In this document: in pieces, positions 120-14,931 of the stretch
Position numbering within the stretch: the stretch's first letter is position 1
Layout of the letters: each line of letters starts with the position of its first letter
Assembly: GCA_040757115.1 (NCBI GenBank)
Contig: JBFLYA010000082.1
Coordinates: 1-15,626, forward strand
DNA from: a bacterium
GTDB taxonomy: Bacteria; UBA9089; CG2-30-40-21; SBAY01
Length of the DNA stretch: 15,626 nucleotides
Reading direction: 5' to 3'
The notes under the pieces: model-generated
Seen by the model: only the letters and a program-made list of their open reading frames with translations
Databases searched by the model: none
Told to the model about the DNA's origin: nothing
Made by a program: the position numbers and the translations under genes

Positions 120-247
120 AGTATTAAAAAATTAATAAACAACGAAAGACCCAAAATGCACAAAAAAAGGAAATTTCTGTCTCTGGTAAATAGATTTTAA
201 TTTTTTCTCTGCGTCTCTGTGTCTCTGCGGTGAACGGTTACAAAAAA
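120..247 (+). repeat. Dispersed repeat, copy A (right half of an inverted-repeat element)
   Basis: This stretch is nearly identical to 10072-10193: both run from AGTATTAAAA through AACGAAAGACCC and TTTCTGTCTCTGGT to the end TGAACGGTTAC (231-241 here). The copies differ by a few substitutions and by an 8-base expansion of the CTCTGTGT tract in this copy. In the copy between the tRNA genes the same sequence is the right-hand half of a 240-bp element with matching ends. Here the left end is not visible before the window start, so this is a partial or left-truncated copy. No reading frame of note crosses it. The repeat relationship is read directly from the sequence; mobility is inferred. Confidence 0.8.
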
Positions 248-288
248 TCCTGATAATCTGCGTTTATCTGCGTCCAACAAAAAAGAAA

Positions 289-329
289 ATCAGTGTTTCA
301 TCCGTGTCCATCTGTGGCTGAACAGTTAC
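289..329 (+). repeat. Repeat right end, GTAAYNRTTCA family, upstream of the TPR gene
   Basis: The segment runs from TTTCATCCGTGTCCATCTG to TGAACAGTTAC (319-329). Close copies lie at 6080-6117 and 8719-8758, with the same order of words (TTTCATC, GTCCATCTGTGGCTGAA, then AGTTAC). All three are on the + strand, and each finishes 28-39 bases before a start codon; here it is 39 bases before ATG 369. Read on the minus strand, the end is GTAACTGTTCAGCCACAGAT, matching the left end at 4176. It could be a miniature-transposon end or a leader element. The sequence shows repetition and position, not function. The rest of 1-368 holds no gene I can support. Confidence 0.75.
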
Positions 330-368
330 GAAAAAATAATAAATTTCAACAAACTGGGAGTTATTTTA

Positions 369-3300
369 ATGGCAGAATCTAATCAAAATTTCTCATTTGA
401 AAATGATATAGAAGACCTATTGGGTGATTTAGGAGTAGTAGTAGAAAAAAAAACGGAATCAGAGGAAGAAAAAATATCTGAATTACCGGCTAAACAAGAA
501 ATCTCTCCTACTCCGCCAGAATCACCGGTTGAACTTGAAGAAGAACCCCCCGCCCCGGCTGAAGAAGAAAAGGTTGCCCCAGAAACTAAAGAAAAAGCAC
601 CAGAAGTAAAGGAAGAAGAATTGCCGGCTAAACAAGAAATCTCCCCTACTCCGCCAGAATCACCGGTTGAACTTGAAGAAGAACTACCCGCCCCGGTTGA
701 AGAAGAAAAGGTTGCCCCGGAAATCGAAGAAGAAACACCGCAAGTAAAGGAAGAAGAATTGCCGGCTAAACAAGAAATCTCCCCTACTCCGCCACCGTCA
801 CCGGTTGAACTTGAAGAAGAACTACCCGCCCCGGCTGAAGAAGAAAAGGTTGCCCCGGAAATCGAAGAAGAACCACCACAAGTAAAGGAAGAAGAATTGC
901 CGGCTAAACAAGAAATCTCCCCTACTCCACCAGCATCACCGGTTGAACTTGAAGAAGAACTACCCACGCCGGTTGAAGAAGAAAAGGTTGCCCCGGAAAT
1001 CGAAGAAGAACCACCACAAGTAAAGGAAGAAGAATTGCCGGCTAAACAAGAAATCTCCCCTACTCCACCAGCATCACCGGTTGAACTTGAAGAAGAACTA
1101 CCCACCCCGGTTGAAGAAGAAAAGGTTGCCCCGGAAATCGAAGAAGAAACACCACAAGTAAAGGAAGAAGAATTGCTGGCTAAACAAGAAATCTCCCCTA
1201 CTCCGCCAGAATCACCGGTTGAGATTGAAGAAGAACTACCCGCCCCGGCTGAAGAAGAAAAGGTTGCCCCGGAAATCGAAGAAGAAACACCACAAGTAAA
1301 GGAAGAAGAATTGCTGGCTAAACAAGAAATCTCCCCTACTCCGCCAGAATCACCGGTTGAGATTGAAGAAGAACTACCCGGCCCGGTTGAAGAAGAAAAG
1401 GTTGCCCCGGAAATCGAAGAAGAAACACCGCAAGTAAAGGAAGAAGAATTGCCGGCTAAACAAGAAATCTCCCCTACCCCGCCAGCATCACCGGTTGAAC
1501 TTGAAGAAGAACCACCCGCCCCGGCTGAAGAAGAAAAGGTTGCCCCAGAAACTAAAGAAGAAGCACCAGAAGTAAAGGAAGAAGAATTGCCGGCTAAACA
1601 AGAAATCTCCCCTACTCCGCCAGAATCACCGGTTGAGATTGAAGAAGAACTACCCGGCCCGGTTGAAGAAGAAAAGGTTGCCCCGGAAATCGAAGAAGAA
1701 ACACCGCAAGTAAAGGAAGAAGAATTGCCGGCTAAACAAGAAATCTCCCCTACCCCGCCAGAGTCACCGGTTGAACTTGAAGAAGAACTACCCGTCCCGA
1801 CTGAAGAAGAAAAGGTTGCCCCGGAAATCGAAGAAGAAGCACCAGAAGTAAAGGAAGAAGAATTGCCGGCTAAACAAGAAATCTCCCCTACCCCGCCAGC
1901 ATCACCGGTTGAACTTGAAGAAGAACTACCCGCCCCGGTTGAAGAAGAAAAGGTTGCTCCAGAAATCGAAGAAGAAGCACCAGAAGTAAAGGAAGAAGAA
2001 TTGCCGGCTAAACAAGAAATCTCTCCTACCCCGCCAGCATCACCGGTTGAACTTGAAGAAGAACTACTCGCCCCGGTTGAAGAAGAAAAGGTTGCCCCAG
2101 AAACCAAAGAAGAAGCACCAGAAGCAAAGGAAGAAGAATTGCCGGCTAAAGAAGAAATCTCCCCTACTCCGCCAGTGTCGCCGGTTGAACTTGAAGAAGA
2201 ACCACCCGCATCCGTAGAACAAGAAATACCTGAATTAGAAGAGACATCGATACCTGTTGAAGAGGAGGTCAAGGAAGAAATTATGCCTGAAGAAAAAATA
2301 CCTATTATTGAAGAAGAGATACATAAGGAAGAAGAACATGGAGAGGCGTTTGAAACAATCATTACCGAAGACCACTTTGAAGAAATTAAAGAACTAAAAG
2401 AAGAACTCCCACGCCCTCTTCCCAAAACTCCAAAACACAAGAAAGAAAAAGTGTCCATTCTCCCATTTTTAAAAAGAGGACTACAAATTCTCTTTTTAGG
2501 TATTGTGATAACCGGGATTTTATCATTGAGTTATCCAGCTTACCTATATTTCTATAAACCATATCAACATTTTAAATCCGGAGCAAATTATATTCAATCT
2601 AAAAAATTTGATAAGGCAGAAGATGAGTTTAAAGAGGGATTAAGTTTTGTTCGAGGGAAAAGAGGGAAGATTAATGCTTATAATCAATTTGGTGAAGTTT
2701 ATTTAAAGGTAAATGAGTATAAAAAGGCGGAGCAAAAATTCAATCAAGCCCTTCTTATAGCCCCAGATTACCCTGTTACTAAAAATAATCTTGTCAAACT
2801 TCAAATCCAAAAAGGTCATTTAAAAGCAAGTGAAGAGATGTGTAAAGAGATTTTATCCGCACATCCTACAAATATACCAACTTATGTTAATTTAGCCAGG
2901 GTATTACTTATGACTTCACGACCCGAAGGCGCAGTTAAATGTTTAAAATATGCCCTTTCTGTAAATAAAAAAGATATAGAGGCCTTATCCCTATATCAAC
3001 ATGCGTTAGCTAAAGCAGGTAAACATCGTGAGTCATTAAGTATTCATCGCTATCTATACCAGCTTGTCAAAGGTAAAAGATTATATTATCCTGATGATTT
3101 GACTGATATTGGACACATTTACTTGAAAAAGGGAGATTTATTTACTTCAGCCGATATTTTTCACCTGGTCTTAAGACATTATCCCAAACACAGTCGGGCA
3201 AGATTTCTATTATCTCAAGTATTACTTAAGGAATACAAGGTAGATGAGGCAATAAAAGAGCTTGAAAAAACAACGAAATATAATCCAAACTACGACCCTG

Positions 3301-3950
3301 CTTATACGCTTTTAGGTCAGGTTTATTATGATAAAAAGATATACGATAAGGCATTAATCCGATTTCATAGAGCGACTATGATTAATCCTGAAAACAATGC
3401 GGCTTTTGAAGGAATGGGAAATGTTTATTATTATCATTTAAATGCCTATAAGGAGGCGGCAAATGCCTATGCAAAAGTAAAAACAACTTCACTTCAAACA
3501 AAGTATAATTTAGCTACCTGTTTTTATAAAACAGGTCAATTTGATAAAGCCCTTGAACTGTGGAAAAGATTTCCACCAATTCCTGTAATTAACTATAATC
3601 TGGCTAATACCTATGTCCAGTTACATAATTTAGACCAGGCAATGAAAGAATATGAAGATTTGATAAATTTTTATAAAGAGAAGATAAAAGCAAGTGCTAT
3701 TCAACGAGAAAGAAAGGAGATGTATCAAGAATTAAGCGAGATTTATAATAATGTCGGGGTAGTGACCGAATTACAAGGAGAAGGTAAAAAGGCACTTTCT
3801 TACTATTGGCAAGCATTAGAATTTGCCTCTTTAGCCGATGGAGAAAATAAACCCGCCTACAATAACCTTAATCGAACCTTTAACTTAGAAGGTTTAAGTT
3901 CTGTTACTCAAGCACTAAATGATGTAAAAAAGGTAACCGTTCAACCATAG
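369..3950 (+). CDS. Membrane-anchored TPR protein with a Pro/Glu/Lys tandem-repeat domain
   Basis: A 1193-residue protein starting at ATG 369, with GGGAG at 356-360 eight bases upstream. Residues 1-37 are a short acidic head containing DIEDLLGDLG. Residues 38-589 are twelve exact 46-residue repeats rich in Glu, Pro, Lys and Val, with PEVK-like words; a decayed thirteenth follows, then an acidic linker to about 680. A basic patch (KTPKHKKEK) precedes one hydrophobic helix at about 704-727. From about 736 to 1170 there are roughly ten TPR-like helix pairs, for example around AEDEFKEGL and AIKELEKTTKYNPNYDPAY. By the positive-inside rule the repeat domain should be cytoplasmic and the TPR domain outside the membrane. 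TPRs usually bind proteins; the partner is unknown. I do not recognise a named family. The last residues (VTVQP and the stop) lie inside a dispersed repeat, so the original C-terminus may have been replaced. Confidence 0.85.
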   Translation: MAESNQNFSFENDIEDLLGDLGVVVEKKTESEEEKISELPAKQEISPTPPESPVELEEEPPAPAEEEKVAPETKEKAPEVKEEELPAKQEISPTPPESPVELEEELPAPVEEEKVAPEIEEETPQVKEEELPAKQEISPTPPPSPVELEEELPAPAEEEKVAPEIEEEPPQVKEEELPAKQEISPTPPASPVELEEELPTPVEEEKVAPEIEEEPPQVKEEELPAKQEISPTPPASPVELEEELPTPVEEEKVAPEIEEETPQVKEEELLAKQEISPTPPESPVEIEEELPAPAEEEKVAPEIEEETPQVKEEELLAKQEISPTPPESPVEIEEELPGPVEEEKVAPEIEEETPQVKEEELPAKQEISPTPPASPVELEEEPPAPAEEEKVAPETKEEAPEVKEEELPAKQEISPTPPESPVEIEEELPGPVEEEKVAPEIEEETPQVKEEELPAKQEISPTPPESPVELEEELPVPTEEEKVAPEIEEEAPEVKEEELPAKQEISPTPPASPVELEEELPAPVEEEKVAPEIEEEAPEVKEEELPAKQEISPTPPASPVELEEELLAPVEEEKVAPETKEEAPEAKEEELPAKEEISPTPPVSPVELEEEPPASVEQEIPELEETSIPVEEEVKEEIMPEEKIPIIEEEIHKEEEHGEAFETIITEDHFEEIKELKEELPRPLPKTPKHKKEKVSILPFLKRGLQILFLGIVITGILSLSYPAYLYFYKPYQHFKSGANYIQSKKFDKAEDEFKEGLSFVRGKRGKINAYNQFGEVYLKVNEYKKAEQKFNQALLIAPDYPVTKNNLVKLQIQKGHLKASEEMCKEILSAHPTNIPTYVNLARVLLMTSRPEGAVKCLKYALSVNKKDIEALSLYQHALAKAGKHRESLSIHRYLYQLVKGKRLYYPDDLTDIGHIYLKKGDLFTSADIFHLVLRHYPKHSRARFLLSQVLLKEYKVDEAIKELEKTTKYNPNYDPAYTLLGQVYYDKKIYDKALIRFHRATMINPENNAAFEGMGNVYYYHLNAYKEAANAYAKVKTTSLQTKYNLATCFYKTGQFDKALELWKRFPPIPVINYNLANTYVQLHNLDQAMKEYEDLINFYKEKIKASAIQRERKEMYQELSEIYNNVGVVTELQGEGKKALSYYWQALEFASLADGENKPAYNNLNRTFNLEGLSSVTQALNDVKKVTVQP
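480..2215 (+). repeat. Coding minisatellite: twelve 138-bp units plus a partial thirteenth
   Basis: Each unit starts GAATTGCCGGCTAAACAAGA (the first is GAATTACCGG) and encodes 46 residues beginning ELPAKQEISPTPP. Units start at 480 and every 138 bases thereafter without an indel; the twelfth ends at 2135. A thirteenth (2136 onward, with KEEIS replacing KQEIS) decays after about 80 bases. The units are not equally related. Unit 8 resembles unit 1 (both carry APETKE and APEVKEE). Unit 7 matches unit 9 apart from one residue. Units 4 and 5 also differ by one residue. This suggests duplication of multi-unit blocks. Strict length with frame preserved implies selection for the protein repeat. Copy number could vary between strains, and could be mis-assembled from short reads. 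Confidence 0.95.
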
Positions 3951-4103
3951 AGGCACAGAGTTCACAGAGAATTAGAGAAATTAGCCACTGAAAAGTGAGG
4001 CTAAAGCCTCGCATACAAATCTTTTTATTATTCGTGTTCATTCGTGGTTATATATTCCCTCTGTGTTCTCTGTAACTCTGTGGCTATATCCCTGAACGGT
4101 TAC
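3933..4103. repeat. 171-bp inverted-repeat element (MITE-like) overlapping the TPR gene's stop
   Basis: The left end is GTAACCGTTCA at 3933-3943, followed by ACCATAGAGGCACAGAG and TTCACAGAGAA. The right end is TGAACGGTTAC at 4093-4103, preceded by CTCTGTGTTCTCTGTAACTC, so the two ends are imperfect inverted copies over about 40 bases. Inside lies a short perfect hairpin, GAGGCT-AA-AGCCTC (3997-4010). There is no reading frame of useful length. The left end encodes the VTVQP tail and stop of the upstream protein. It resembles a non-autonomous element of the same family as 9948-10187. No transposase recognising these ends is in the window, and a target duplication is not evident. Confidence 0.75.
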
Positions 4104-4175
4104 TGAAAAAGGAATATAGGATAAAAAAATAAATAATGCAGGCAATAAATTACCAGGCTAATAATTTAAAAAATC

Positions 4176-4222
4176 GTAACTGTTCAGCCACTGATTAACA
4201 CAGATTGACACGGATAAAATAG
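4176..4222 (+). repeat. Repeat left end, GTAAYNRTTCA family (isolated)
   Basis: GTAACTGTTCA (4176-4186) is followed by GCCACTGATTAACACAGATT and then GACACGGATAAAATAG. The same word order occurs at 14538 in the end of ftsH. A degenerate end, GTAAGCGTTCA, lies at 4249-4259. No matching right end is found before 4700, so this is a solo or broken copy. Confidence 0.65.
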
Positions 4223-4263
4223 ATTATCAAAGTAGCATTTAAAGTGGAGTAAGCGTTCAGCCG

Positions 4264-4578
4264 TGTCCCTCAGATGGGACAATATCAACTCAAAACTCAA
4301 ATGTCAAAACTCAAAACTTCATCTCAAAACCTTAAAACTAATAGATTTATTGCGACTGATGGAGAAGCTTTTAATTGTAGTTTTGAGCTTTGCTTCATTT
4401 AATGTCCCATAGGGACAACATATCGGTAGAAATAAATATCATACAAATAATGTCCCGTAGGGACAATATATCGGTAAATGGCTTTCCATAAATTTTCTAC
4501 CAATATATCGTTCCTACGGAACTGATTGATTTATCTATCTATTCCTACCGATATTATGTTCCTAACGGAACGATTATT
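4264..4578. repeat. Cluster of five small palindromes upstream of the Rpn nuclease gene
   Basis: Three units read TGTCCC-loop-GGGACA followed by a tail: 4264-4281 (tail AATATC), 4403-4417 and 4451-4465 (tails ending ATCGGTA). Two units are inverted and use a variant stem, GTTCC-loop-GGAAC: 4510-4522, and 4558-4571 preceded by CTACCGATAT. The conserved signature is a 5-6 bp stem, a 3-6 base loop, and an AT-rich tail ending CGGTAG on one side. Units on opposite strands face each other across 4480-4500, giving a paired REP-like layout. They end about 75 bases before the nuclease promoter. The hairpins are visible; any recognition by the adjacent nuclease is speculation. Confidence 0.75.
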
Positions 4579-4654
4579 CTCATACCTTATTTATGGGTAT
4601 TATCCTATGTAGACTTCCAGTTAATAACCGCTATACAACAAAAGTAAAAAACCT

Positions 4655-4683
4655 TTGACTTTTACAGAATTATCTGCTATAAT
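4655..4683 (+). promoter_or_regulatory. Sigma70-type promoter for the Rpn nuclease gene
   Basis: TTGACT (4655-4660), a 17-base spacer, and TATAAT (4678-4683), with an extended -10 TGC directly before the -10 box. Transcription should start near 4690. That leaves almost no leader before ATG 4699 but about 30 bases, including AGGAG, before ATG 4720. This decides the start codon. Confidence 0.8.
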
Positions 4684-4719
4684 ACCAGTAAGATAAAAAT
4701 GGGGCAGGAGAAAATAAAG

Positions 4720-5679
4720 ATGGAGATATCCAATCCGCATGATGCCTTTTTTAAAGAGGTGTTTTCCAATAAAGAGAATGCAGATGATTTTATCAATGCT
4801 ACCTTACCAGAAGATTTGAAGAAAAATCTGGATTTGTCAACATTGGAATTGGATAATAATTCTTATATCGATGAGGAACTAAAGGAGAACTTTTCGGATA
4901 TCGTCTATAATTGCTTCTATATTGGTAAGAGCAAGATAAAGATTTCACTTTTATTTGAACATAAGAGTTATGTAGTGAAATATCCACATCTTCAGATTCT
5001 AAGGTATATGCTGAAGATATGGCAGACTAATATCAAGCAGAAAGAAAAATTAATTCCTATTATTCCTATTATTTTCTACCACGGCAAGGACAAATGGCAT
5101 TTAAGGGAGCTAAGTAGTTATTTTGAAGGGTTTGATGAGGTATTAGGCCGTTATATCCCAGATTTTGATTATTTATTGACTGATTTATCGGGTTATAGTG
5201 ATGAAGATTTAAAGGGAAGGATATTTTTAAATATTGGTTTACGGATTACATGTTTAATGATGAAAAATATCTTTGATGAGGGAAAGGTAAGGGAACATTT
5301 AGAGGAATTTTTAGCGATAGGGAAGATGTATTATGAACAGGAGAAGGGATTAAAGTTTTTAGAAGGGGTAATAAGGTATATCTACAATAGCACTGAGATT
5401 AAGATAGAGGAAGTAATTGAAGCAACTAAGAAGATTTCTGCAAAAGGAGGTGCAGTAGCAATGACTACAGCAATGAGATTAAGGCAAGAAGGATTACAAC
5501 AAGGGGTACAACAAGGCTTACAACAAGGAATACAACAAGGCTTACAACAGGGTGCATACAACAAGGCGATAGAAACTGCTAAGTCTATGTTCCGCAAAGG
5601 GTTTAATCTTGAGGTGATTGCTGAAATCACAGGACTTACAAAAGAAGATTTGAAAAGGCTTGTTAATGAAAAACACTAA
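4720..5679 (+). CDS. Rpn-family recombination-promoting nuclease / putative transposase (PD-(D/E)XK)
   Basis: A 319-residue protein. ATG 4720 is chosen over an in-frame ATG at 4699 because AGGAG (4706-4710) sits nine bases upstream and the promoter places the transcript start near 4690. The N-terminus NPHDAFFKEVFS is the family signature. The nuclease core follows: Asp60 in SDIVY, then LLFEHKS with Glu80 and Lys82, matching the D...ExK arrangement. The C-terminal third carries a QQG-type tandem run (about residues 256-278) typical of the family, then a helical tail ending TKEDLKRLV. Rpn proteins (known from E. coli RpnA) are DNA nucleases that raise RecA-independent recombination; many are annotated as transposase. 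The core appears intact. It stands alone, with repeats on both sides and a hairpin 19 bases after the stop. Confidence 0.88.
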   Translation: MEISNPHDAFFKEVFSNKENADDFINATLPEDLKKNLDLSTLELDNNSYIDEELKENFSDIVYNCFYIGKSKIKISLLFEHKSYVVKYPHLQILRYMLKIWQTNIKQKEKLIPIIPIIFYHGKDKWHLRELSSYFEGFDEVLGRYIPDFDYLLTDLSGYSDEDLKGRIFLNIGLRITCLMMKNIFDEGKVREHLEEFLAIGKMYYEQEKGLKFLEGVIRYIYNSTEIKIEEVIEATKKISAKGGAVAMTTAMRLRQEGLQQGVQQGLQQGIQQGLQQGAYNKAIETAKSMFRKGFNLEVIAEITGLTKEDLKRLVNEKH

Positions 5680-5697
5680 ACTATAGGCAGACCTGTG

Positions 5698-5716
5698 GGG
5701 TGCATTTTATGCACCC
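5698..5716. other. Perfect hairpin after the Rpn gene
   Basis: GGGTGCAT (5698-5705), loop TTT, ATGCACCC (5709-5716): an 8-bp perfect stem 19 bases past the nuclease stop codon. No T-run follows, so a classical rho-independent terminator is not supported. It may still end or stabilise the transcript, or be one more dispersed palindrome. The bases after it (GTGCTTCTGTGCCTTTGTGCC) repeat the 9-10-base word rhythm seen in the GTAAYNRTTCA elements. Confidence 0.55.
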
Positions 5717-5855
5717 TACCTTTGTGCTTCTGTGCCTTTGTGCCTGATATAGACTTATACCATTCCCCCAAATGAGTGACCTATTACAATCCCTGTAACA
5801 AAAGTTTCCACCTGTGCGATTAGACTAATTCATCGCAGAGACGCAAAGGAAAAAT

Positions 5856-5963
5856 AAATGTAAAATGTAAAATAGGAAATGAAAAATGGGAAATTTTAGT
5901 ACTTCACAAGACTCATTACCTTTCAGTTATACATTTTCATTTTACATTATCCATTTTACATTT
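5856..5963. repeat. 108-bp inverted repeat with AAATGTAAAATG ends
   Basis: AAATGTAAAATG (5856-5867) and CATTTTACATTT (5952-5963) are exact inverted copies. The similarity continues inward with indels (GAAATGAAAAATG against CATTTTCATTTTAC). The centre holds no frame. This is a different family from the GTAAYNRTTCA elements. The remaining part of 5717-6033 contains only fragments such as CGCAGAGACGCAAAGG (5833-5848) and no gene I can support. Confidence 0.65.
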
Positions 5964-6033
5964 AACCACACAGGTCGATAAATTTCAATGTGGAAAGATT
6001 GAAAGAAGGCATAAAAAGATTTGTCTTGTCCAA

Positions 6034-6117
6034 TCTTCGTGTCCTTCGTGCTCTTCGTGGTGAATAGTTACCAAAAATCAATGTTTCATCCGTATCTATC
6101 TGTGGCTGAATAATTAC
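6034..6117 (+). repeat. Two tandem repeat right ends upstream of alr
   Basis: The first end runs from CTTCGTGTCCTTCGTGCTC to TGAATAGTTAC (6061-6071). The second begins CAATGTTTCATCCGTATC and finishes TGAATAATTAC (6107-6117). The order matches 204-329, where a three-word end is likewise followed after about 40 bases by a TTTCATCCGTG end. The second end finishes 32 bases before the alr start codon. No convincing -35/-10 pair was seen between 5964 and 6149, so the alr promoter may lie inside the repeats. Confidence 0.7.
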
Positions 6118-6149
6118 AAAAAATCTATAGAAATTCTTAACCGATTACT

Positions 6150-7229
6150 ATGAATAAATGGATTGAAATTAATCTAACAAATATAACACATAATATCAAC
6201 CAGGTCCGTAAATTAGTCGGCGAGGGAGTAGAGATAATGCCTATTGTCAAAGCTAATGCCTATGGCCATGGGGGTATTGAAGTTGCAAAAACGGTCATAG
6301 AAGCAGGGGCAAATAGATTAGGTGTGGCATCTCTGAATGAAGGGATAGAACTCCGAGCCGCTGGAATAACTGTTCCTATCTTAGTTTTATCTCCTCTTGA
6401 ATCTAATCAACTTCAACAAGCGATTGATAACCAATTAACATTGACCATTTCAAGTCTTTCTGACCTTAAAAATTTATTCAACCAATCAATAAAAATTCAT
6501 CTTAAGATAGATACTGGTATGGGCAGACTTGGAATTCAGTGTAACGAAATAAATGAGTTAATTGAAATCATAAAATCATCTCATTTACAAATAGAAGGTA
6601 TTTTTTCTCATTTTGCTCAGGCGGATGTGGATGATAAATCATATACCTATAAACAATTTAGTAAATTTCAAGAGGTAGTAAAGAACATCTCTGCGTCAGG
6701 AATAGATATTCCGATAAAACATATCTCAAACAGTGCCGCAATAATAAGATTTAAGGAGATGCACTTAAATTTAGTCAGACCAGGCATTATGATTTATGGG
6801 CTTTACCCTGCACCGAATATCCCTAAAATAGTGTCTCTCCGCCCGGCAATGACATTTAAAACTAAGATTATCCAATTGCGTAAAATCCCGCAAGGATATG
6901 GTATTTCCTATGGTTCAACTTACATCACTCCTGAAGAAACACTCATCGCCACTATCCCGGTAGGTTATGCCGATGGTTATAACCGACTTTTATCTAATAA
7001 GGCACAGGCAGTAATTAAAGGAATTCGAGTGCCTATTGTAGGACGAATAACAATGGATTTTTGTATGCTAAATGTAAATAAAGTTCCGGATGTGGCAACT
7101 GGGGATGAAGTCATCTTATTTGGTGAAGACCCACAGGTAGATGAATTAGCACAAATCTGTCAGACAATCAACTACGAAATCGTCTGTGGCATAAATCTGC
7201 GTGTACCGCGGAGGTATTGCAGAGACTAA
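6150..7229 (+). CDS. alr: Alanine racemase
   Basis: A 359-residue, full-length PLP enzyme that interconverts L- and D-alanine in the cytoplasm, feeding D-Ala-D-Ala synthesis for peptidoglycan. The N-terminal TIM barrel carries the PLP-binding lysine Lys34 in VKANAYGHG. Further signatures are DTGMGRLG (121-128), HISNSAA (191-197), and RPGIMIYGLYP (210-220). The C-terminal domain has the second catalytic base, Tyr254, in GYGISYGSTY, then the VGYADGYNR and GRITMDFCMLNV motifs and a conserved VPRRY near the end. The start fits the family's N-terminus (KWIEINLTNITHNI). No Shine-Dalgarno sequence is visible before ATG 6150, so initiation may be SD-independent. The gene is monocistronic by spacing (about 470 bases after Rpn, 260 before the next gene). 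No frameshift or missing residue. Confidence 0.96.
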   Translation: MNKWIEINLTNITHNINQVRKLVGEGVEIMPIVKANAYGHGGIEVAKTVIEAGANRLGVASLNEGIELRAAGITVPILVLSPLESNQLQQAIDNQLTLTISSLSDLKNLFNQSIKIHLKIDTGMGRLGIQCNEINELIEIIKSSHLQIEGIFSHFAQADVDDKSYTYKQFSKFQEVVKNISASGIDIPIKHISNSAAIIRFKEMHLNLVRPGIMIYGLYPAPNIPKIVSLRPAMTFKTKIIQLRKIPQGYGISYGSTYITPEETLIATIPVGYADGYNRLLSNKAQAVIKGIRVPIVGRITMDFCMLNVNKVPDVATGDEVILFGEDPQVDELAQICQTINYEIVCGINLRVPRRYCRD

Positions 7230-7328
7230 ACTTAGAAAAAAATGGGGTAGTGAAATAATAGGGTGATGCATTTAACATCAACACTCCCATACTAGTGTCG
7301 TGTTGAACAAATAACGCACGGAATTTGA

Positions 7329-7414
7329 TTCTGGTAACTGGTGATTGGTAACTGGTAATTAAATACCGTTCGGCTGATCTCAGGACGAAACTATTTAACC
7401 AGTTACCAATTATC
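7329..7414. repeat. Inverted repeat of the GGTAACTGGT type
   Basis: ATTGGTAACTGGT (from about 7344) pairs with ACCAGTTACCAAT (7398-7410). A further GGTAACTGGT copy at 7333 makes the left arm a tandem. The same vocabulary (TTGGTAA...) builds the hairpin between the tRNA genes at 9752-9788. The loop contains GTTCGGCTGATCTCAGGACG. Upstream, 7292-7328 (AGTGTCGTGTTGAACAAATA and the following bases) looks like a distinct insertion scar but is not identifiable. No terminator for alr is evident in 7230-7320. Confidence 0.55.
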
Positions 7415-7488
7415 CGTTTGCAGGTTATGAAATCTGATGATACGCCGTGCAAAATTTACTCAACACCACACTAGCAAAAGGACATAGA

Positions 7489-8349
7489 ATGATTTGGGTT
7501 ATTTATTCATTAATCTCTGCCTTTTCTTCTGCAACAACAGATACACTTTCTAAAAAGGCAATGGAAAAAGAAAACCAATATTTAATTCTCTGGGTAAGAT
7601 TGGTTTATTGCCTGCCTTTTCTTATGCCATTACTTATTTTTATCCAGATTCCTGAGTTAGATTTTGTTTTTTGGAGCACTATTTTACTCCTGTTACCATT
7701 TGAAATTATCGCTGAAATACTTTATGTTCAAGCAATAAAGATTTCGCCTCTATCATTGACTATTCCATTTCTTTCATTTACACCTGTATTTTTGATTTTT
7801 GTTTCTTTTTTTATTTTAGGTGAATTGCCTACAGTCATTGGAGTTATAGGGATTATCTTAGTAGCAATTGGAGGTTATACCTTAAATCTTCATCGGACTT
7901 CACAGGGTATATTAGAACCTTTAAAAGCCATAATTAAAGAAAAAGGTTCATTTTATATGCTCATTGTCTCTTTTATTTTCAGTATTACAGCGACTCTGGG
8001 CAAATTAGCGATTTTGCATTCAAGTCCAACATTTTTTGGCGCATTTTATTTCATCCTTTTAGGAACAGCCTTTACGCCTATTGCAATTGTCAAATCAAAG
8101 AAAAGATTTATTGACTTTTTCAAGATTTCCAGAAATTATTTTTTTATTGGTTTCTTCTTTGCAGTAATGGTCATTTGCCATTGTTTGGCAATTCAATTGG
8201 TTGAGGTTTCGTATATGATTTCTATCAAGCGGGCAAGTCTAATCTTCAGTGTTATCTATGGCTGGTTAATCTTTAAAGAAGAAAATATCAAAGAAAGATT
8301 CTTTGGAACTTTACTGATGATAATCGGGATGGTCTTGATTATACTGTAA
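7489..8349 (+). CDS. EamA/DMT-family transporter
   Basis: A 286-residue inner-membrane protein of about ten hydrophobic helices, made of two EamA repeats (about 2-133 and 153-286). The first repeat shows the SSATTDTLSKKAM stretch in helix 1, and PLSLTIPFLSFTPVFLI before GELPT. The second shows ATLGKLAILHSSP and ends FKEENIKERFFGTLLMIIGMVLI, a common EamA finish. ATG 7489 is chosen over an in-frame GTG at 7447 because AAAAGGA (7476-7482) lies six bases upstream and the extra 14 residues are polar and outside the fold. Family members export or import small metabolites (amino acids, nucleotide sugars, drugs). The substrate cannot be read from sequence or context, because the neighbouring genes are separated by repeats. 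Confidence 0.88.
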   Translation: MIWVIYSLISAFSSATTDTLSKKAMEKENQYLILWVRLVYCLPFLMPLLIFIQIPELDFVFWSTILLLLPFEIIAEILYVQAIKISPLSLTIPFLSFTPVFLIFVSFFILGELPTVIGVIGIILVAIGGYTLNLHRTSQGILEPLKAIIKEKGSFYMLIVSFIFSITATLGKLAILHSSPTFFGAFYFILLGTAFTPIAIVKSKKRFIDFFKISRNYFFIGFFFAVMVICHCLAIQLVEVSYMISIKRASLIFSVIYGWLIFKEENIKERFFGTLLMIIGMVLIIL

Positions 8350-8508
8350 GTCAGATGAATCAGACAAAGAAAAAGGGGAAACGGGGAAACGAAGAAAGGG
8401 AGAAATCTGTGTCCTCTGCGGTAAAATCTTGCGGATATTTTCAGGGGAAACGGACATGAGCCAAGGCTCACAAAGGGCAATGAAAATGGGAGAAGGACAA
8501 CCCCCTAA

Positions 8509-8526
8509 CCCCCTTTATTAAGGGGG
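8509..8526. other. CCCCCTT hairpin
   Basis: CCCCCTT (8509-8515), loop TATT, AAGGGGG (8520-8526), preceded by a second C5 run at 8501. The stem is strong, 160 bases after the transporter gene, but no T-tract follows on either strand. It resembles a dispersed palindrome common in environmental genomes more than a terminator. Confidence 0.5.
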
Positions 8527-8622
8527 AATATCTGTTCTACACCATAGGATATGAGTCTGTGGATACTATACTAATTCGCTAATCTCTAATTCACTAATTC
8601 GCTATTTTCAGGGGAAAGGAAG

Positions 8623-8694
8623 TTTCACGCCAGGCATGCAAAGAACGCAAAGGAAAATAAGGGAAAAAATTACCTTTGCGTCCTTTGCGTGAAA
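8623..8694. repeat. 72-bp palindromic element with TTTCACGC ends
   Basis: TTTCACGC (8623-8630) and GCAAAGAACGCAAAGG (8638-8653) pair with CCTTTGCGTCCTTTGCGTGAAA (8673-8694, listed as stem arm). The left arm carries a 7-base insertion, CAGGCAT, and one mismatch. Flanking copies of TATTTTCAGG (8435, 8604, 8699), the first two extended by GGAAA, form a second short direct repeat. No gene is present in 8350-8786. Confidence 0.65.
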
Positions 8695-8718
8695 AAACTA
8701 TTTTCAGGTCACGAATTT

Positions 8719-8758
8719 TCAGTGTTTCATCTGTGTCCATCTGTGGCTGAATAGTTAC
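8719..8758 (+). repeat. Repeat right end, GTAAYNRTTCA family, upstream of the QueG-like gene
   Basis: TTTCAGTGTTTCATCTGTG leads through CCATCTGTGGC to TGAATAGTTAC (8748-8758), 28 bases before ATG 8787. It is the third copy in the window that directly precedes a coding region on the same strand (others at 289-329 and 6080-6117). It is nearly identical to the first copy over 40 bases. Confidence 0.75.
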
Positions 8759-8786
8759 AGAAATTATTAAGGTGGTGAATAAAATT

Positions 8787-9440
8787 ATGAACTCAAAAAA
8801 TGAAATTGAAACACAAATAAAAGATTTAGTAAAAAAAGAAGGGATTGTGCTATGTGGTTATGCTAATCTGGAGAATGTCCAGCGTCCATTATTAGCCCAA
8901 AAACTAACTTATGGTATTTCCTTAGGCTATCGGCTTTCAGAGGTGATAATTGACGGCATAATTGATAGACCGACAAGAGACTATTTCCATCATTATCGCC
9001 AGATTAATCTTTTACTTGACCAGAGTGCATTAAAGGTAACCAGTTTTATTCAACAACAAGGTTACAATGCCTTACCCATTCCCGCGTCTCAAATTACCGA
9101 TTGGAAAGAGATAAGAGGAAGTATTTCTCATAAATTAATTGCGGCTAAGGCTGGCGTAGCCTGGATAGGTAGAAGTTCATTAGCAGTTAGTCCAGATTAT
9201 GGAGCGAGAATAAGATATGTCAGTATTTTGACAGATTTACCACTTTCAACTGGAAAACCGTTAGATTTTGATTGTGGGGATTGTCAAAAATGTCTTGCAA
9301 TCTGTCCTTGTGGGGCAATTGGAGATAGTGCAGATAAATTTGACCGCAATAAATGCCTTGAGCAACTAAAAATCTTTGCTAAATCAGAGAATTTAGGCAC
9401 GCATTACATCTGTGGGCTGTGTGTTAAAATTTGTAGGTAA
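8787..9440 (+). CDS. Short QueG-like protein with double 4Fe-4S cluster domain
   Basis: A 217-residue protein from ATG 8787 (an in-frame GTG at 8772 sits inside the AAGGTGGTG likely ribosome-binding region, so the later ATG is preferred). The middle holds the epoxyqueuosine-reductase-like stretch WIGRSSLAVSPDYG...ILTDLPL. It is followed by two ferredoxin-like clusters: CGDCQKCLAIC (first Cys at residue 163) and a later Cys190 with CGLCVKIC (first Cys at 209). QueG itself reduces epoxyqueuosine to queuosine in tRNA using cobalamin, and is usually longer with a C-terminal HEAT-like region. Short relatives of about 220-240 residues lack that part and have unproven function. The frame stops one residue after the final cysteine, where relatives typically continue with Pro and several residues. 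Electron transfer is probable; the tRNA-modification role is uncertain. Confidence 0.8.
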   Translation: MNSKNEIETQIKDLVKKEGIVLCGYANLENVQRPLLAQKLTYGISLGYRLSEVIIDGIIDRPTRDYFHHYRQINLLLDQSALKVTSFIQQQGYNALPIPASQITDWKEIRGSISHKLIAAKAGVAWIGRSSLAVSPDYGARIRYVSILTDLPLSTGKPLDFDCGDCQKCLAICPCGAIGDSADKFDRNKCLEQLKIFAKSENLGTHYICGLCVKICR

Positions 9441-9619
9441 ACCGTAAAAAGAGGATGTGGCGATAAAAATAATGACAAAATTTGCATTCTTCCCTCATTG
9501 CTCATTCCCAAATTTAGTCAGTGGCAAACTTTCAAACAAAAGTGAACCATTCCCTTGTTCCTTTGTTTCCTTGCTCCCTTGTTAAATTTGTAAAATTCGT
9601 GTATTTGTGTAAATTTCTC

Positions 9620-9648
9620 TTGACAATCTGTTTATTTTAATATACAAT
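9620..9648 (+). promoter_or_regulatory. Promoter of the tRNA-Leu gene
   Basis: TTGACA (9620-9625), a 17-base spacer and TACAAT (9643-9648), with the mature tRNA beginning 12 bases further on. This is the consensus arrangement for a stable-RNA promoter. It probably also serves the tRNA-fMet gene 54 bases after tRNA-Leu, since no separate promoter is seen there. Confidence 0.8.
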
Positions 9649-9659
9649 ATAATCTGGTA

Positions 9660-9748
9660 GCCGAGATGGCGGAATTGGCAGACGCACCGGACTTAAAATC
9701 CGGTGGAAATTTATTTCCGTGCCGGTTCAAGTCCGGCTCTCGGCACCA
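9660..9748 (+). tRNA. tRNA-Leu (anticodon UAA)
   Basis: An 89-base class II tRNA. The acceptor stem GCCGAGA pairs with TCTCGGC (9738-9744), followed by discriminator A and an encoded CCA. The anticodon arm CCGGA-CTTAAAA-TCCGG gives TAA, reading UUA and UUG. A long variable arm (GGAAATTTATTTCC region) confirms the leucine class. The T arm contains GGTTCAAGTCC. Confidence 0.97.
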
Positions 9749-9751
9749 GTT

Positions 9752-9788
9752 TGGTAAATAGTAATTGGTAACCATTTACTATTTACCA
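9752..9788. repeat. Perfect 13-bp hairpin between tRNA-Leu and tRNA-fMet
   Basis: TGGTAAATAGTAA (9752-9764) and TTACTATTTACCA (9776-9788) are exact inverted copies. The loop includes TTGGTAACCA, itself a partial palindrome. It begins three bases after the CCA of tRNA-Leu. No T-run follows, so read-through into tRNA-fMet is likely. It could act in precursor processing, or be the same GGTAA-type repeat as 7329-7414. Confidence 0.7.
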
Positions 9789-9801
9789 TTTACCAATACA
9801 T

Positions 9802-9876
<75 letters not shown>

Positions 9877-9947
9877 GAAAAGAAGTAGAAAGAAGAGAGT
9901 AGAAAGTAGAGAGAGAGGAATCTAACAAAGACTGAGACAAAAAATCT

Positions 9948-10187
9948 GTAACCGTTCAGGTAATCCTTTACCGCAGAGACGCAGAGAAACAGAGAGGAAA
10001 ATATCTTTTTTTCGTATTTTTCTCGCATTTTTCGCTGTTTAAAAAGGCTTAAAAACAGTTAGTCAAAAGTAAGTATTAAAAGATTAATAAACAACGAAAG
10101 ACCCGAAATGCACACAAAAAAAGGAAATTTCTGTCTCTGGTGAATAGATTTTAATTTTTTCTCTGCGTCTCTGCGGTGAACGGTTAC
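9948..10187. repeat. 240-bp inverted-repeat element between the two Met tRNA genes
   Basis: The left end is GTAACCGTTCA (9948-9958), a 12-base insert, then CCGCAGAGACGCAGAGAAA. The right end is TTTCTCTGCGTCTCTGCGG followed by TGAACGGTTAC (10177-10187). Apart from the insert the arms match over 30 bases. The right half is a near copy of 120-247. Around the element lies a second exact inverted pair, GTAGAAAGTAGAGAG (9899-9913) and CTCTCTACTTTCTAC (10194-10208), so one inverted repeat is nested within another. No coding frame is credible. A miniature mobile element is the likely class, by inference. Confidence 0.8.
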
Positions 10188-10231
10188 AAAAATCTCTCTA
10201 CTTTCTACTCGCTACTCTCTACTTTTTAATT

Positions 10232-10308
10232 GGCGGTGTAGCTCAGCTGGTCAGAGCAACGGAATCATAATCCGTGTGTCCGGGGTTCGAATCCCTGCGC
10301 CGCTACCA
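10232..10308 (+). tRNA. Elongator tRNA-Met (anticodon CAU)
   Basis: 77 bases with encoded CCA. The acceptor stem is GGCGGTG / CGCCGCT, with wobble pairs G1-U72 and U6-G67. The anticodon arm ACGGA-ATCATAA-TCCGT gives CAT. The first 20 bases and the CGCCGCTACCA end match the elongator tRNA-Met pattern known from Bacillus, rather than tRNA-Ile2, whose CAU would be lysidinylated by TilS. The anticodon loop has A at position 32, where a pyrimidine is usual. An Ile2 identity is not fully excluded. Confidence 0.92.
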
Positions 10309-10349
10309 GTAATTAATCTAATAACTGTTGATTCACAAAGGAAATTTTT

Positions 10350-11066
10350 ATGGATATAACAGAGTTTAGTATAAGAATTTTGCTTCTTTTCTTTCCAGGG
10401 ATAATCTGTTCATATATCGTCGATACATTTACAATACATAAACCACGAGAACCATTTTTCTTTTTGCTTCAGTCTTTTGTTTTTGGATTATCGTCATATT
10501 TCTTATTTTGGGTAGTACTTCCAATATATAATTTCATGGGGATTAAAGTGGGACTTTGGGACTCTAAGTCAGAAGTCGTATTTCTTAGAGCACTTATTGA
10601 TGACAATATTCACATTTCCTATTATGAAATAGTATGGGTTTGTTTTGTGGCAATTATTCTGGGATTAATTATTACTGCAATTGAAACCTACAAGATTCAC
10701 TTTCGGTTGGTTAAGGGTTTAAGGATTACTAAAAAATTTGGTGAATTGGATGTATGGGGCTATTCCCTTAACGCAAAAGATATTGAATGGGTAACTGTTA
10801 GAGATATAGAGAAAGATTTAGTTTATGATGGATGGGTTCAATCTTTCTCTGATGATTCAAAGGATGCGGAACTGCTTCTTCGTGATGTTTCTGTTTATAG
10901 TAATTTAGAAGCTAAACCTTTATATCAAGTTGGAGCAATGTATATTTCAAGGAAGCGTGATGATATTACCATAGAGTTTAGAACAATTCCTATTACTGAG
11001 AATATAAAATGGAAGGAGGGGAAAGAAGATGAAGGAAATAAAACCAATCCCGAAGCCACTGAATGA
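10350..11066 (+). CDS. DUF6338-like membrane protein
   Basis: A 238-residue protein of unknown function. ATG 10350 has AAGGA at 10338-10342, seven bases upstream. Three hydrophobic helices are visible, at about 5-25 (LLLFFPGIICSYIVD), 36-58 and 91-112. They are followed by a soluble C-terminal domain. That domain has well-formed conserved-looking blocks: VWGY, DIEWVTVRDIEKDLVYDGWV (144-163), LLLRDVSVY (175-183), and GAMYISRKRDDITIEFR (195-211). I recall this layout from Pfam DUF6338 proteins, but the assignment is from memory of the family pattern. The last 13 codons overlap the start of a small proline-rich gene, which suggests translational coupling. It begins 41 bases after tRNA-Met and may be read from the tRNA transcript. 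Confidence 0.75.
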   Translation: MDITEFSIRILLLFFPGIICSYIVDTFTIHKPREPFFFLLQSFVFGLSSYFLFWVVLPIYNFMGIKVGLWDSKSEVVFLRALIDDNIHISYYEIVWVCFVAIILGLIITAIETYKIHFRLVKGLRITKKFGELDVWGYSLNAKDIEWVTVRDIEKDLVYDGWVQSFSDDSKDAELLLRDVSVYSNLEAKPLYQVGAMYISRKRDDITIEFRTIPITENIKWKEGKEDEGNKTNPEATE

Positions 11067-11172
11067 AGGAATGATAAAAAAGGGAGGTGTAAACTTACCA
11101 CCCAAAACACCACCACCACCACCACCTTCAGGGCAGGGTAGTAAATCTCATCCTATTGGAAAAAAAAGTTAA
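11029..11172 (+). CDS. Small proline-rich protein overlapping the DUF6338-like gene
   Basis: A 47-residue frame in a different phase from its neighbour. ATG 11029 is preceded by a strong Shine-Dalgarno sequence, AAGGAGG (11013-11019), nine bases away inside the upstream gene, and the two genes overlap by 38 bases. The product is basic and disordered in appearance: KPIPKPLNEG, then IKKGGVNLPPKTPPPPPPSG with six prolines in a row, ending SHPIGKKS. There are no membrane segments. The excellent ribosome-binding site and the overlap support a real gene coupled to the membrane protein. Function unknown; a binding peptide for an SH3-like or other polyproline-recognising partner is possible but unproven. 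Confidence 0.65.
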   Translation: MKEIKPIPKPLNEGMIKKGGVNLPPKTPPPPPPSGQGSKSHPIGKKS

Positions 11173-11182
11173 AAGAAAAGAG

Positions 11183-11329
11183 TTTAATCGTATTAGATTT
11201 AATCCAAAAGTAATGGGTGGATGTAGAGGTAGCCGAAGGATACATATTACTGTTTCTCTGAGTGCTAATGGTATAAAGAGTGAGGATGTGCTCCGAGATT
11301 TCGGTAGATGGAAAATCCAAAACCCCTAA
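11183..11329 (+). pseudogene. Remnant of a DUF433 (VapB-type) antitoxin
   Basis: The frame reads FNRIRFNPKVMGGCRGSRRI, then HITVSLSANGIKSEDVLRDF and ends at TAA 11327-11329. This matches the DUF433 pattern: R-I-x-F-(D/N)-P-x-V-M-G-G, then C-I-R-G-x-R-I, then L-x-x-x-A-N-G, then (E/D)-x-(I/V)-L-x-D. Several core pieces are missing or altered (the CxRGTRI box is scrambled to CRGSRRI, and residues between ISV and LAN are lost). The frame has no start codon, being preceded by in-frame lysine codons and stops. No VapC-like toxin follows. I read it as a decayed antitoxin gene left between two functional units. Confidence 0.65.
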
Positions 11330-11347
11330 TTTTTACGATTTTAATCC

Positions 11348-12706
11348 ATGATTGAAAAGGTAGAAAAAATTATTATTCAATATCATATGCTTGATGAAGA
11401 AGATAAAGTAGTCATTGGAATTTCTGGAGGGCCTGATTCGGTTGCTCTTTCACATATCCTCTCAAGATTACAAAAAAAATATAAATTAACACTTTATCTG
11501 GCTCACTTAAATCATTTATTAAGAAAAGAGGCAAAACAAGAGGCTTTATTCGTAAAAGAAATAGCAAAATCACTGAAATTACCTATTGTTACCGCAGAAA
11601 TAGACATTTTGCAGGATACTTCAAAAAATTTCTCCATCCAGCAAAAAGCCCGTAAAGTTAGATATGAATTCTTAATTCAAACCGCAAAAACACTAAATGC
11701 GAATAAAATTGTCTTAGCCCATCATCATGATGATAATTTTGAAACTAAACTTATGTGGTTAATCCGTGGATGCGGAGCAACAGGAATAAAAGGAATTCCA
11801 CCTGTACGGAAAATTGATGAACAACTTTATATCATTCGACCATTAATAAAAATTACAAAACAAGAAATCATAGATTACCTTAAATCTCATAATCTATCAT
11901 TTAAAACAGATACATCTAATCTGAAAACAGATTATTTACGCAATAAAATCCGATTAAAATTATTACCAAAACTACAAGAGTATAACCCAAAGATAAAAGA
12001 GGTATTAGATAAATTATTTACTTTGTGGGAAATAGATGATGAATATTTAGAGTTTTTATCAAAAGAAGAGAAGAATAAAGTTCTATCAGGAAAAAATAAG
12101 GTTGACTTAAAAAAATTTTCCTGCCTCCATCAATCTATTCAATCCCGTATCTTACGCCAAATGATTGAAGAAGTAAAAGGCGATTTACAAGGAATTACAT
12201 TTAAACATATTGAGGCTATCTTAAATTTAATTAAAAATGGACCGGCGCAAGGAAGTTTGAATTTACCATTAAATATTAATATTCAAAGGGAATATGATAC
12301 TTTAACTATTTATCACGGAGATAGAGTTGAGGAAAAAGGGGAAGAAAAATATTTAAAAGTTCCCGGGATAACCGTAATAGACGGCTTAAAAATAGAAACA
12401 CAATTAATCCAGAAAATTTCTCTCTCTACCGATTTATCTACTTACTTAGATTATGATAAAGTTCAATTACCATTATTACTTCGCCATCGAAAAAAAGGTG
12501 ATAGATTTCATCCTTATGGAATGGTGGGAAGTAAAAAGATTAAAGATTTTTTTATGGATTTAAAGATTCCAAAAACAAAGCGAGACAAAATCTATCTTCT
12601 TGAGGATAAAGAAGGAATTATTTCGATAATTGGACTTAATAGAATTGATGAACGAGTAAAGATTACAGATTTGACTAAAAATATATTAATGATAAAGGTG
12701 ATTTAG
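11348..12706 (+). CDS. tilS: tRNA(Ile)-lysidine synthetase
   Basis: A 452-residue protein that ligates lysine to C34 of the CAU-anticodon tRNA-Ile2 in an ATP-dependent reaction, switching it to read AUA. The N-terminal PP-loop ATPase has SGGPDS at 26-31, then AHLNHLLR (52-59), AHHHDDNFET (124-133) and GIKGIPP (146-152), followed by RPL...D.SN..TDYLRNKIRLKLLP (164-207). A helical middle domain follows at about 215-300. The C-terminal TilS domain has RHRKKGDRFHPYGM (379-392), KKIKDFF and KRDKIYLL. The length equals the long (Bacillus-type) form. No Shine-Dalgarno sequence is visible before ATG 11348. The stop is one base before the ftsH start, so the two genes form an operon; tilS and ftsH are neighbours in many bacteria. 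The C-terminal tail looks complete. Confidence 0.95.
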   Translation: MIEKVEKIIIQYHMLDEEDKVVIGISGGPDSVALSHILSRLQKKYKLTLYLAHLNHLLRKEAKQEALFVKEIAKSLKLPIVTAEIDILQDTSKNFSIQQKARKVRYEFLIQTAKTLNANKIVLAHHHDDNFETKLMWLIRGCGATGIKGIPPVRKIDEQLYIIRPLIKITKQEIIDYLKSHNLSFKTDTSNLKTDYLRNKIRLKLLPKLQEYNPKIKEVLDKLFTLWEIDDEYLEFLSKEEKNKVLSGKNKVDLKKFSCLHQSIQSRILRQMIEEVKGDLQGITFKHIEAILNLIKNGPAQGSLNLPLNINIQREYDTLTIYHGDRVEEKGEEKYLKVPGITVIDGLKIETQLIQKISLSTDLSTYLDYDKVQLPLLLRHRKKGDRFHPYGMVGSKKIKDFFMDLKIPKTKRDKIYLLEDKEGIISIIGLNRIDERVKITDLTKNILMIKVI

Positions 12707-12707
12707 A

Positions 12708-14570
12708 ATGAGTAAAGGTGTAAATTTAATTTTGTGGTTAATTTTTTTAATATTAGTTTTACCCTATCTACTTAAGACTTTTCAGACACCTCTTCCACCA
12801 GTACCTGACCGAATAAGTTATAGTGAGTTTTTAGACTTTGTAGAAAAAGGTAAAGTTCAGAATCTTAAGATTGTTGACCGGGATATTAAAGGGACATTTA
12901 AAGGAGACAAGCCATTTGTTACTTATATACCTCATGAAGACCCTAACTTAATCAAATTTTTAGTTGAGCATAAGGTTTCTTTTGAAGGAGATAGTCCCGC
13001 AGAGGCAAAATGGTGGATGACACTACTCTGGTATTTAGGGACTCCTGTGTTTTTTTTCTTCCTCATCTGGTTTTTGTTATCTCAGCAAGTTGGAGGACCA
13101 AGGGGATTAACTCGTATAGCTACCTTTGGTCAAAGTCGGGCTAAATTTAATCCTAAGGAAAAAACGACAATCTCATTTAAAGATGTTGCGGGTGTAGATG
13201 AGGCAAAGGAAGAATTACAGGAGATAATAGAATTTCTGCGTCAGCCAAAAAAATTCCAGAAACTCGGGGCTAAAATTCCCAAAGGCGTTCTTTTAGTTGG
13301 TCTTCCTGGAACAGGAAAAACATTATTAGCCAAAGCAGTTGCTGGTGAGGCTCAAGTGCCTTTTTTAAGTATCAGTGGCTCGGATTTTGTTGAAATGTTT
13401 GTTGGAGTAGGTGCATCCCGGGTGAGAAATTTATTTGACCAGGCTAAAAAACAGGTAACTTCTTCAAATAAAGGATGTATTATTTTTATTGATGAAATCG
13501 ATGCAGTTGGCAGACAACGGGGGGCAGGACTGGGTGGAGGTCATGATGAACGAGAGCAAACTTTGAATCAATTATTAGTGGAAATGGATGGTTTTAACAC
13601 CGGCGAAGGGGTAATATTGATTGCCGCCACGAATAGACCTGATGTCCTTGACCCAGCACTTCTTAGACCCGGTAGATTTGATAGACATATTACAGTTGAT
13701 ATTCCTGATTTACCCGGTCGGGAGGCAATTCTTAAAGTCCATATGAAAAATGTTAAGGTAGCAAAAGAGGTGGATATAAAATTACTGGCACGCAGGACCT
13801 CAATGTTTGTTGGTTCAGACCTGGCAAATTTAGTTAATGAAGCCGCTTTATTGGGTGCCAGAAGAAAGAAAAAAAGAATAGGAACAAAGGAATTTGAAGA
13901 TGCAATTGAACGAATTATTGCTGGTCCAGAAAAGAAAAGTAAGGTTACTTCTGAAAGAGAAAAAAAGATTAAGGCATACCATGAAGCAGGACATACACTA
14001 CTGGCTAAACTTATACCGAATAGTGACCCGGTTCATAAAGTCTCAATTATACCTCGTGGCATTGCAGGAGGTTATACCCTTCAATTACCTACGGAAGATA
14101 AACATCTTTATACCCGCACTGAATTATTAGATAAAATGGTTGTAGCACTTGGCGGAATGCAAGCAGAATTAATTAAATTTAACGATATGACCACTGGTGC
14201 CCAAAAAGATATTGAATGGACAACAGATATTGCTCATAAAATGATTTGTGAATATGGAATGAGTGAGGAACTCGGTCCTATCGCCTTTGGAAGAAGAGAC
14301 CAGGAGATATTCTTAGGCAGAGATTTCTTTAAAGAAAAAAATTATAGTGAACAGGTGGCATTTAAAATAGATACCGAAATCCATAATCTTATAAATTCCT
14401 GTAATAAAAAGGCTAAAGAATTATTACTCGAAAATAACGATAAACTTGACCGCCTGGCAAATGCCTTAATCGAAAAAGAAACATTAGAATCCCACGAAAT
14501 AGAGGAAATACTTAAAGATGCTCACGAAATTAAAAACGTAACTATTCAACCACTGATTAACACAGATTAG
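12708..14570 (+). CDS. ftsH: ATP-dependent zinc metalloprotease FtsH
   Basis: A 620-residue membrane AAA+ protease that extracts and degrades membrane and short-lived cytoplasmic proteins. An N-terminal helix (6-22), an extracytoplasmic segment, and a second helix (about 106-125) precede the AAA module. Walker A is GLPGTGKT (198-205; the usual second residue is Pro, here Leu). Walker B is IIFIDE (258-263), and RPGRFDR (320-326) holds the arginine fingers. The protease has HEAGH (425-429) with the likely third zinc ligand Asp501 in TTGAQKD. The usual GGRAAEE motif reads [10 protein letters not shown] here. AAAGGTG (12694-12700) precedes the start. The last 11 residues ([11 protein letters not shown]) are encoded by a GTAAYNRTTCA repeat, so the native tail was probably replaced; the catalytic parts end well before. 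Confidence 0.96.
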
Positions 14571-14577
14571 CACGGAT
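14538..14577 (+). repeat. Repeat left end forming the ftsH stop region
   Basis: GTAACTATTCA (14538-14548) is followed by ACCACTGATTAACACAGATT and AGCACGGATAAA. The arrangement is the same as at 4176. In the ftsH frame it encodes [10 protein letters not shown] and the TAG stop. No right end is found before 14932, so the copy is solo. Confidence 0.75.
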
Positions 14578-14710
14578 AAATAGCAGAGGACAGATGAGAA
14601 ACGGGGAAACGGAGAAAGGGAGAAGGAGAGGAGACTCAAGGCACTATACCTAAATTTTTGGTGGTGTCTGAAGATAACGCTAATAGTGAAATCTATGCAG
14701 ATTTGGTGTC

Positions 14711-14818: not shown

Positions 14819-14931
14819 CTTACACTATTTCAACCTTTATGCTAGTGCTCTGTCGCCAATGATTTGATTAAGATTTTGGTCATTCTTGCCGATAATAATA
14901 ATATAAACTCTTGAGGCAAGGAGGAACCAGA

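Follow-up and report, generated by a model that had tools for sequence, protein, structure and literature searches.

Short repeats with a common 12-bp end: very probable MITEs of the IS66 type in a 4.3-Mb bacterial genome

What are the dispersed repeats of this bacterial genome, which differ in their interiors and end again and again in the same few bases? The window, the 15,626-nucleotide stretch of DNA that was analysed here, contains 11 matches to the 11-bp motif GTAAYNRTTCA where 0.20 would be expected in shuffled sequence, and each of the 11 positions given in a preliminary description is an exact match. The frequency is also far above chance in the whole 4.3-Mb genome, with 1,208 matches (591 + 617) versus 55 (20 + 35) for a reversed-pattern control. 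The motif first described is thus real, but its consensus was too narrow: the actual end is 12 bp long, GTAA-[C/G/T][C/T][A/G]-TTCA-[G/C], and the earlier version left out GTAAGCGTTCA, of the GCG class. This sequence is an end too (62 copies versus 0 for the control in 1.56 Mb of stretches), and a copy at 4249 is a twelfth end in the window that had been overlooked. End-class counts, arms and pairing all come from these 1.56 Mb, about 36% of the genome, in which the commonest GTAANNNTTCA words are CCG (174), CTA (141), GCG (62), CTG (38) and TTA (16), the control giving 0-2; GTAAGCG is one of four large end classes. The GTAA and TTCA blocks are imposed by the search pattern, but the fall-off of conservation beyond the end is not. 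The load is about 280 ends per Mb, and by our estimate the repeats take up roughly 3% of the genome.

The ends pair head to head, in convergent orientation. In neighbouring convergent pairs no more than 500 bp apart, flank agreement is confined to a width of 8 bp, where 35 of 102 are identical (mean identity 0.59); other target-duplication lengths were rejected, the mean flank identity being 0.31-0.41. When all convergent combinations within 3 kb are considered, the 8-bp flanks are exact in 56 of 326 and agree at >=7/8 positions in 63, versus agreement in 0 of 111 same-strand control combinations. The genome-wide excess, the target-site duplications and the co-variation of paired ends, all of which the preliminary description had named as things to look for, are present. 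The 58 short elements verified by such duplications measure 118-546 bp (median 240 bp), and among them no CCG, GCG or TCG end is paired with a CTA or TTA end, when permutation gives a mean of 17.9 such mixed pairs and a minimum of 8. Each family has its own characteristic left and right arms; the arms of the verified elements fall into 33 sequence groups whose common sequence ends after position 12-13, in agreement with the initial impression of constant ends and differing interiors. Short, multicopy, free of transposase genes, bounded by terminal inverted repeats and 8-bp target duplications, and missing from exact empty sites, the repeats have the properties of MITEs.

The empty sites come from a comparison with G001, a genome of the same genus. 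Two duplication-bounded elements (L071:7796-8004 and L060:17569-17863) correspond there to clean empty sites that have a single copy of the 8 bp, and L075:8758-8996 to a similar, less clean one. The window's element at 9948-10187 is also absent from G001, its two flanks overlapping there by exactly 8 bp. Exact empty sites of this kind in a sister genome indicate that some elements jumped recently, and the 98.5% mean identity of the six 237-bp copies of the GGCTATATATC family indicates a recent spread of that family. An end lies within 250 bp of the contig start in 20 of 65 contigs versus 5.7% of random windows; these elements disrupt short-read assemblies.

In the window, the following elements and element parts lie outside a larger unit at 4176-6117:

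9948..10187: complete 240-bp MITE with CCG ends, arms GGTAATCCTTTACCGCAGAG / CCGCAGAGACGCAGAG, exact duplication, empty site in G001
9940..9947 and 10188..10195: left and right copies of the target duplication AAAAATCT, exact
3933..4103: complete 171-bp MITE with CCG ends, duplication TAAAAAAG/TGAAAAAG (7/8), present in G001
120..241, reverse strand: right half of a 9948-10187-family MITE; the left part is missing where the contig begins
279..329, reverse strand: right arm of a GGACACGG-type MITE, CTG end
8708..8758, reverse strand: right arm of a GGACACGG-type MITE, CTA end, no partner found within the window
14538..14580, forward strand: left arm of a GATTAACAC-type MITE, CTA end, giving the last codons and stop of the ftsH frame

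The 171-bp and 240-bp pairs are, as originally described, inverted-repeat elements without genes, with duplications matching at 7/8 and 8/8 positions; the presence of the former in the sister genome makes it an older insertion. Several of the remaining ends, which had been taken to be single, are not: one MITE family supplies both the arm at 4176 and that at 6107, and the pair has a perfect duplication and an exact empty site in G001. The ends at 231 and 319 look like the right halves of elements broken up by further insertions or cut off at the contig start. Direct repeats (D9, D10 and D12) join 120-241 to 10072-10192 at 94-98% identity, and at the locus of 279-329 G001 has the left arm of a GGACACGG-type family and another insertion. 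The ftsH alignment to G001 stops at 14536, and the C-terminus of FtsH differs in the sister genome. A MITE end at 3933-3950 likewise supplies the C-terminal codons and stop of a TPR-protein frame, the role that 14538-14570 has for FtsH. At 480-2226 the TPR-protein gene contains a 138-bp (46-codon) tandem repeat in about 12 copies that is differently arranged in the sister genome, and 14911-15378 codes for an N-terminal portion, 155 aa long, of an IS630-family transposase that ends early.

The arms at 4176 and 6107 form a third pair in the window, which the preliminary description had missed, and they enclose far more than a short MITE:

4176..6117: 1,942-bp unit between GATTAACAC/GGACACGG MITE-family arms, carrying rpn; perfect duplication, empty site in G001
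4249..4635, forward strand: left part of a GTAAGCGTTCA-end element, which holds a TATAGC-type MITE and has lost its right end
4699..5679, forward strand: rpn, intact, 326 aa, Rpn-family recombination-promoting nuclease / Transposase_31
5987..6071, reverse strand: lone CTA end with CACGAAG arm

The unit lies at the alr locus. The perfect 8-bp duplication AAAAAATC stands at 4168-4175 and 6118-6125, and in G001 the entire unit is absent from an exact empty site with flanks 96-97% identical. Its interior consists of the truncated GTAAGCG element (homologous, at 85% identity, to a 435-bp end-bounded element, L199:11012-11446), the intact rpn gene (PF04754, E 1.6e-46; TIGR01784, 102.5 bits against a cut-off of 52.1), a GACCTGTGCG-type MITE (5800-5986) and the CACGAAG arm. 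The sequence at 5800-5986 belongs to a second MITE-like family that is unrelated to the first; its members are about 185 bp long, have ends TTTCGACCTGTGCG and exist in many copies at about 95-97% identity (e.g., in L076, L064, L028 and L180). A third repeat family, at 4400-4635, has ends TATAGCRGTTATT and internal GTCCCATAGGGAC / GTTCCTAACGGAAC hairpins, with copies about 97% identical in L083, L049, L085 and L056. We considered rpn as the family's own transposase and rejected it, the genome's other rpn genes not being regularly bounded by such ends.

The unit is thus either a cargo-carrying element or a MITE with later nested insertions. We lean toward the second course, in which a short MITE came first, rpn and the other repeats were added by nested insertion and recombination, and the 1.9-kb unit never moved as a whole. 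Other repeats and a truncated element form a mosaic inside the unit, no donor copy of which was found, and nested MITEs are common (e.g., L060:4645-4923 within 4222-4976). Nested filling, however, requires that all of these gains occurred after the split from G001, whereas a single jump is one event; that the unit moved in this way is conceivable, if short of probable.

Which transposase would move such elements? Published IS66 elements have ends starting GTAAGCG and 8-bp target repeats (PMC11946415; PMC3281130). The repeats could initially be matched to no family that had a name, but their ends, which start with GTAA (a start imposed by the search) and include GTAAGCG, and their 8-bp duplication are those of the IS66 family. 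We conclude with considerable confidence that the repeats are MITEs, non-autonomous elements with the shared ends as terminal inverted repeats, and that IS66-family transposases, supplied in trans, serve to move them. No IS66 transposase gene was found within the window or the 58 verified short elements, which makes these IS66-type MITEs and not IS66 elements. A transposase gene with the same ends, which the preliminary description had suggested seeking, does exist: IS66 genes lie between or beside such ends in the phylum. In this genome a broken IS66 gene (L029) lies between GTAACCGTTCAGGTA ends 1,563 bp apart, and in the same order an intact 468-aa IS66 transposase (L096, identical to L118, contig JASEHA010000036.1) has GTAACCGTTCACA ends 1,505 bp apart. 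Genes of a second IS66 clade (L097, L107, L033 and L110) are bounded or bordered by CTA ends; L095, which is intact at 522 aa, has the close variant GTAACTACTCA, and L101 the close variant GTAATTACTCA. The main CTA-clade sequences are 42-52% identical to one another, those of the CCG clade 40-99%, and sequences of different clades mostly share 22-35%; the two end classes follow these two protein clades. An IS66 gene of Spartobacteria, in another phylum (L123), has GTAACCGTTCAC ends. A weak PF03050 match in G001 (L105; 30.5 bits against a cut-off of 180) was left aside, not being clearly an IS66 protein.

This genome has five IS66-family (PF03050) matches, mostly fragments; its assembly contains no intact IS66 gene, and stops interrupt the best copy, L029. 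Another IS66 element, the third, which ends GTAACTGCTCATCATC, lies with different flanks at contig breaks in the sister genomes G000 and G001, which shows that multicopy IS66 DNA is present but unassembled; the end of this element, GTAACTGCTCA, is one base off the MITE ends. A source copy is presumably active now, or was recently, in this genome. No similarity at E 1e-3 was found, in the part tested, between MITE interiors and IS66 interiors or ends beyond about 15 bp, which leaves a simple origin by internal deletion unsupported.

Other transposase families also duplicate 8 bp, for example those of the ISL3, IS256 and IS1595 type. The repeats could be MITEs of such a family, with the IS66 genes that have the same ends being coincidental or passengers. 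The missing intact IS66 source in this assembly would fit such an origin, as would L029 and L096, for which matching 8-bp flanks were not found, a result that weakens the direct link. We nonetheless regard it as improbable, because matching end classes occur on two IS66 clades, across several genomes and, in one case (L123), outside the phylum, and published IS66 ends begin with GTAA (PMC11946415). Finally, that the repeats are immobile host sites, regulatory or terminator-like and kept by selection, is hardly credible and was dropped as a sole explanation. Their mostly intergenic position (long ORFs hold 18 of 50 insertion points versus 78% of random points) would fit it, but 8-bp duplications, exact empty sites at orthologous loci and nested copies speak against it.

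For these repeats, the preliminary description had proposed that one recognition factor handles several element types. Shared recognition stands, but since at least two end classes, CCG/GCG and CTA/TTA, do not mix, the ends are likely recognised by related IS66 transposases and not by one factor. As we envisage it, an IS66 transposase would recognise the 12-bp end GTAA-NNN-TTCA-[G/C], with NNN tied to its clade (CCG/GCG or CTA/TTA), and bring two ends together; the IS66 proteins would presumably carry out the transposition reaction itself. The element would be inserted into AT-rich, mostly intergenic DNA with duplication of 8 bp. Unrelated interiors may have been caught between ends and then multiplied, and so many of them because little past 12 bp is common. 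A wider and more speculative proposal is that the IS66-type transposases here need little beyond the 12-bp end, that whole genes can therefore be enclosed and moved, and that 4176-6117 is a recently transposed, transposase-less rpn unit. In this phylum the minimal ends number >900 in each genome of two sister species. With clean empty and filled sites from two sister genomes, the sequence needs of IS66 transposition (how far they extend beyond 12 bp, and which NNN) become readable in natural data.

The high load of ends extends across most genomes of the phylum: of the others that were sampled, the majority have an excess of GTAASYRTTCAG (e.g., 930, 752, 411 and 165 hits versus a control of at most 9), and no such excess was found in the sampled genomes of other phyla. 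The repeats, which most genomes of the phylum contain, are a superfamily of IS66-type MITEs with about 33 arm groups and one 12-bp end. Short tandem-like modules (CACGAAG, CGCAGAG and CACAGATT) occur in several arms and in this genome mostly stand directly behind GTAA ends, as in 64 of 71 CAGAGACGCAGAG clusters. Elsewhere in the phylum, and in two genomes from other phyla, the CACGAAG module also occurs without GTAA ends. One inverted element with CACGAAG arms and no GTAA ends (L128, G007:C33, about 870-1100) has a direct repeat of about 23 bp (TTTGCCTGTAAATACTCACCTCA) on either side, where the elements described here have 8-bp duplications.

No IS66-derived MITE was found in the literature open to search, nor any paper matching the exact arm sequence words. 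The closest relatives are the IS66 elements of the single-gene tnpC type, which like the repeats have GTAA-starting ends and 8-bp duplications (PMC11946415, PMC3281130); the IS66 genes of this phylum have 11-15-bp ends identical to those of the repeats. The repeats differ from them in lacking a transposase and in sharing only the 12 bp of the end, conservation across arm groups ceasing at position 12-13, whereas published IS66 inverted repeats extend over 20-30 bp. MITECca01 of Cardinium, of the IS982 family, is about 240 bp long and occupies 3.5% of the chromosome in 169 copies (PMC9769881). It resembles the present repeats in length and in its high copy number, and like them it has no genes, borrows its ends from a transposase gene and lies mostly between genes; ours differ in their IS66-type ends, 8-bp duplications, many unrelated interiors per end and lack of an intact assembled parent. 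TIMEs are Tn3-derived miniature elements reported to make mosaic non-autonomous transposons (PMC4133298). Like the ends here, theirs are non-autonomous and could enclose passenger genes, as may be the case at 4176-6117; TIMEs have Tn3 ends, whereas the ends here are of IS66 and the gene-carrying unit is a candidate for such movement.
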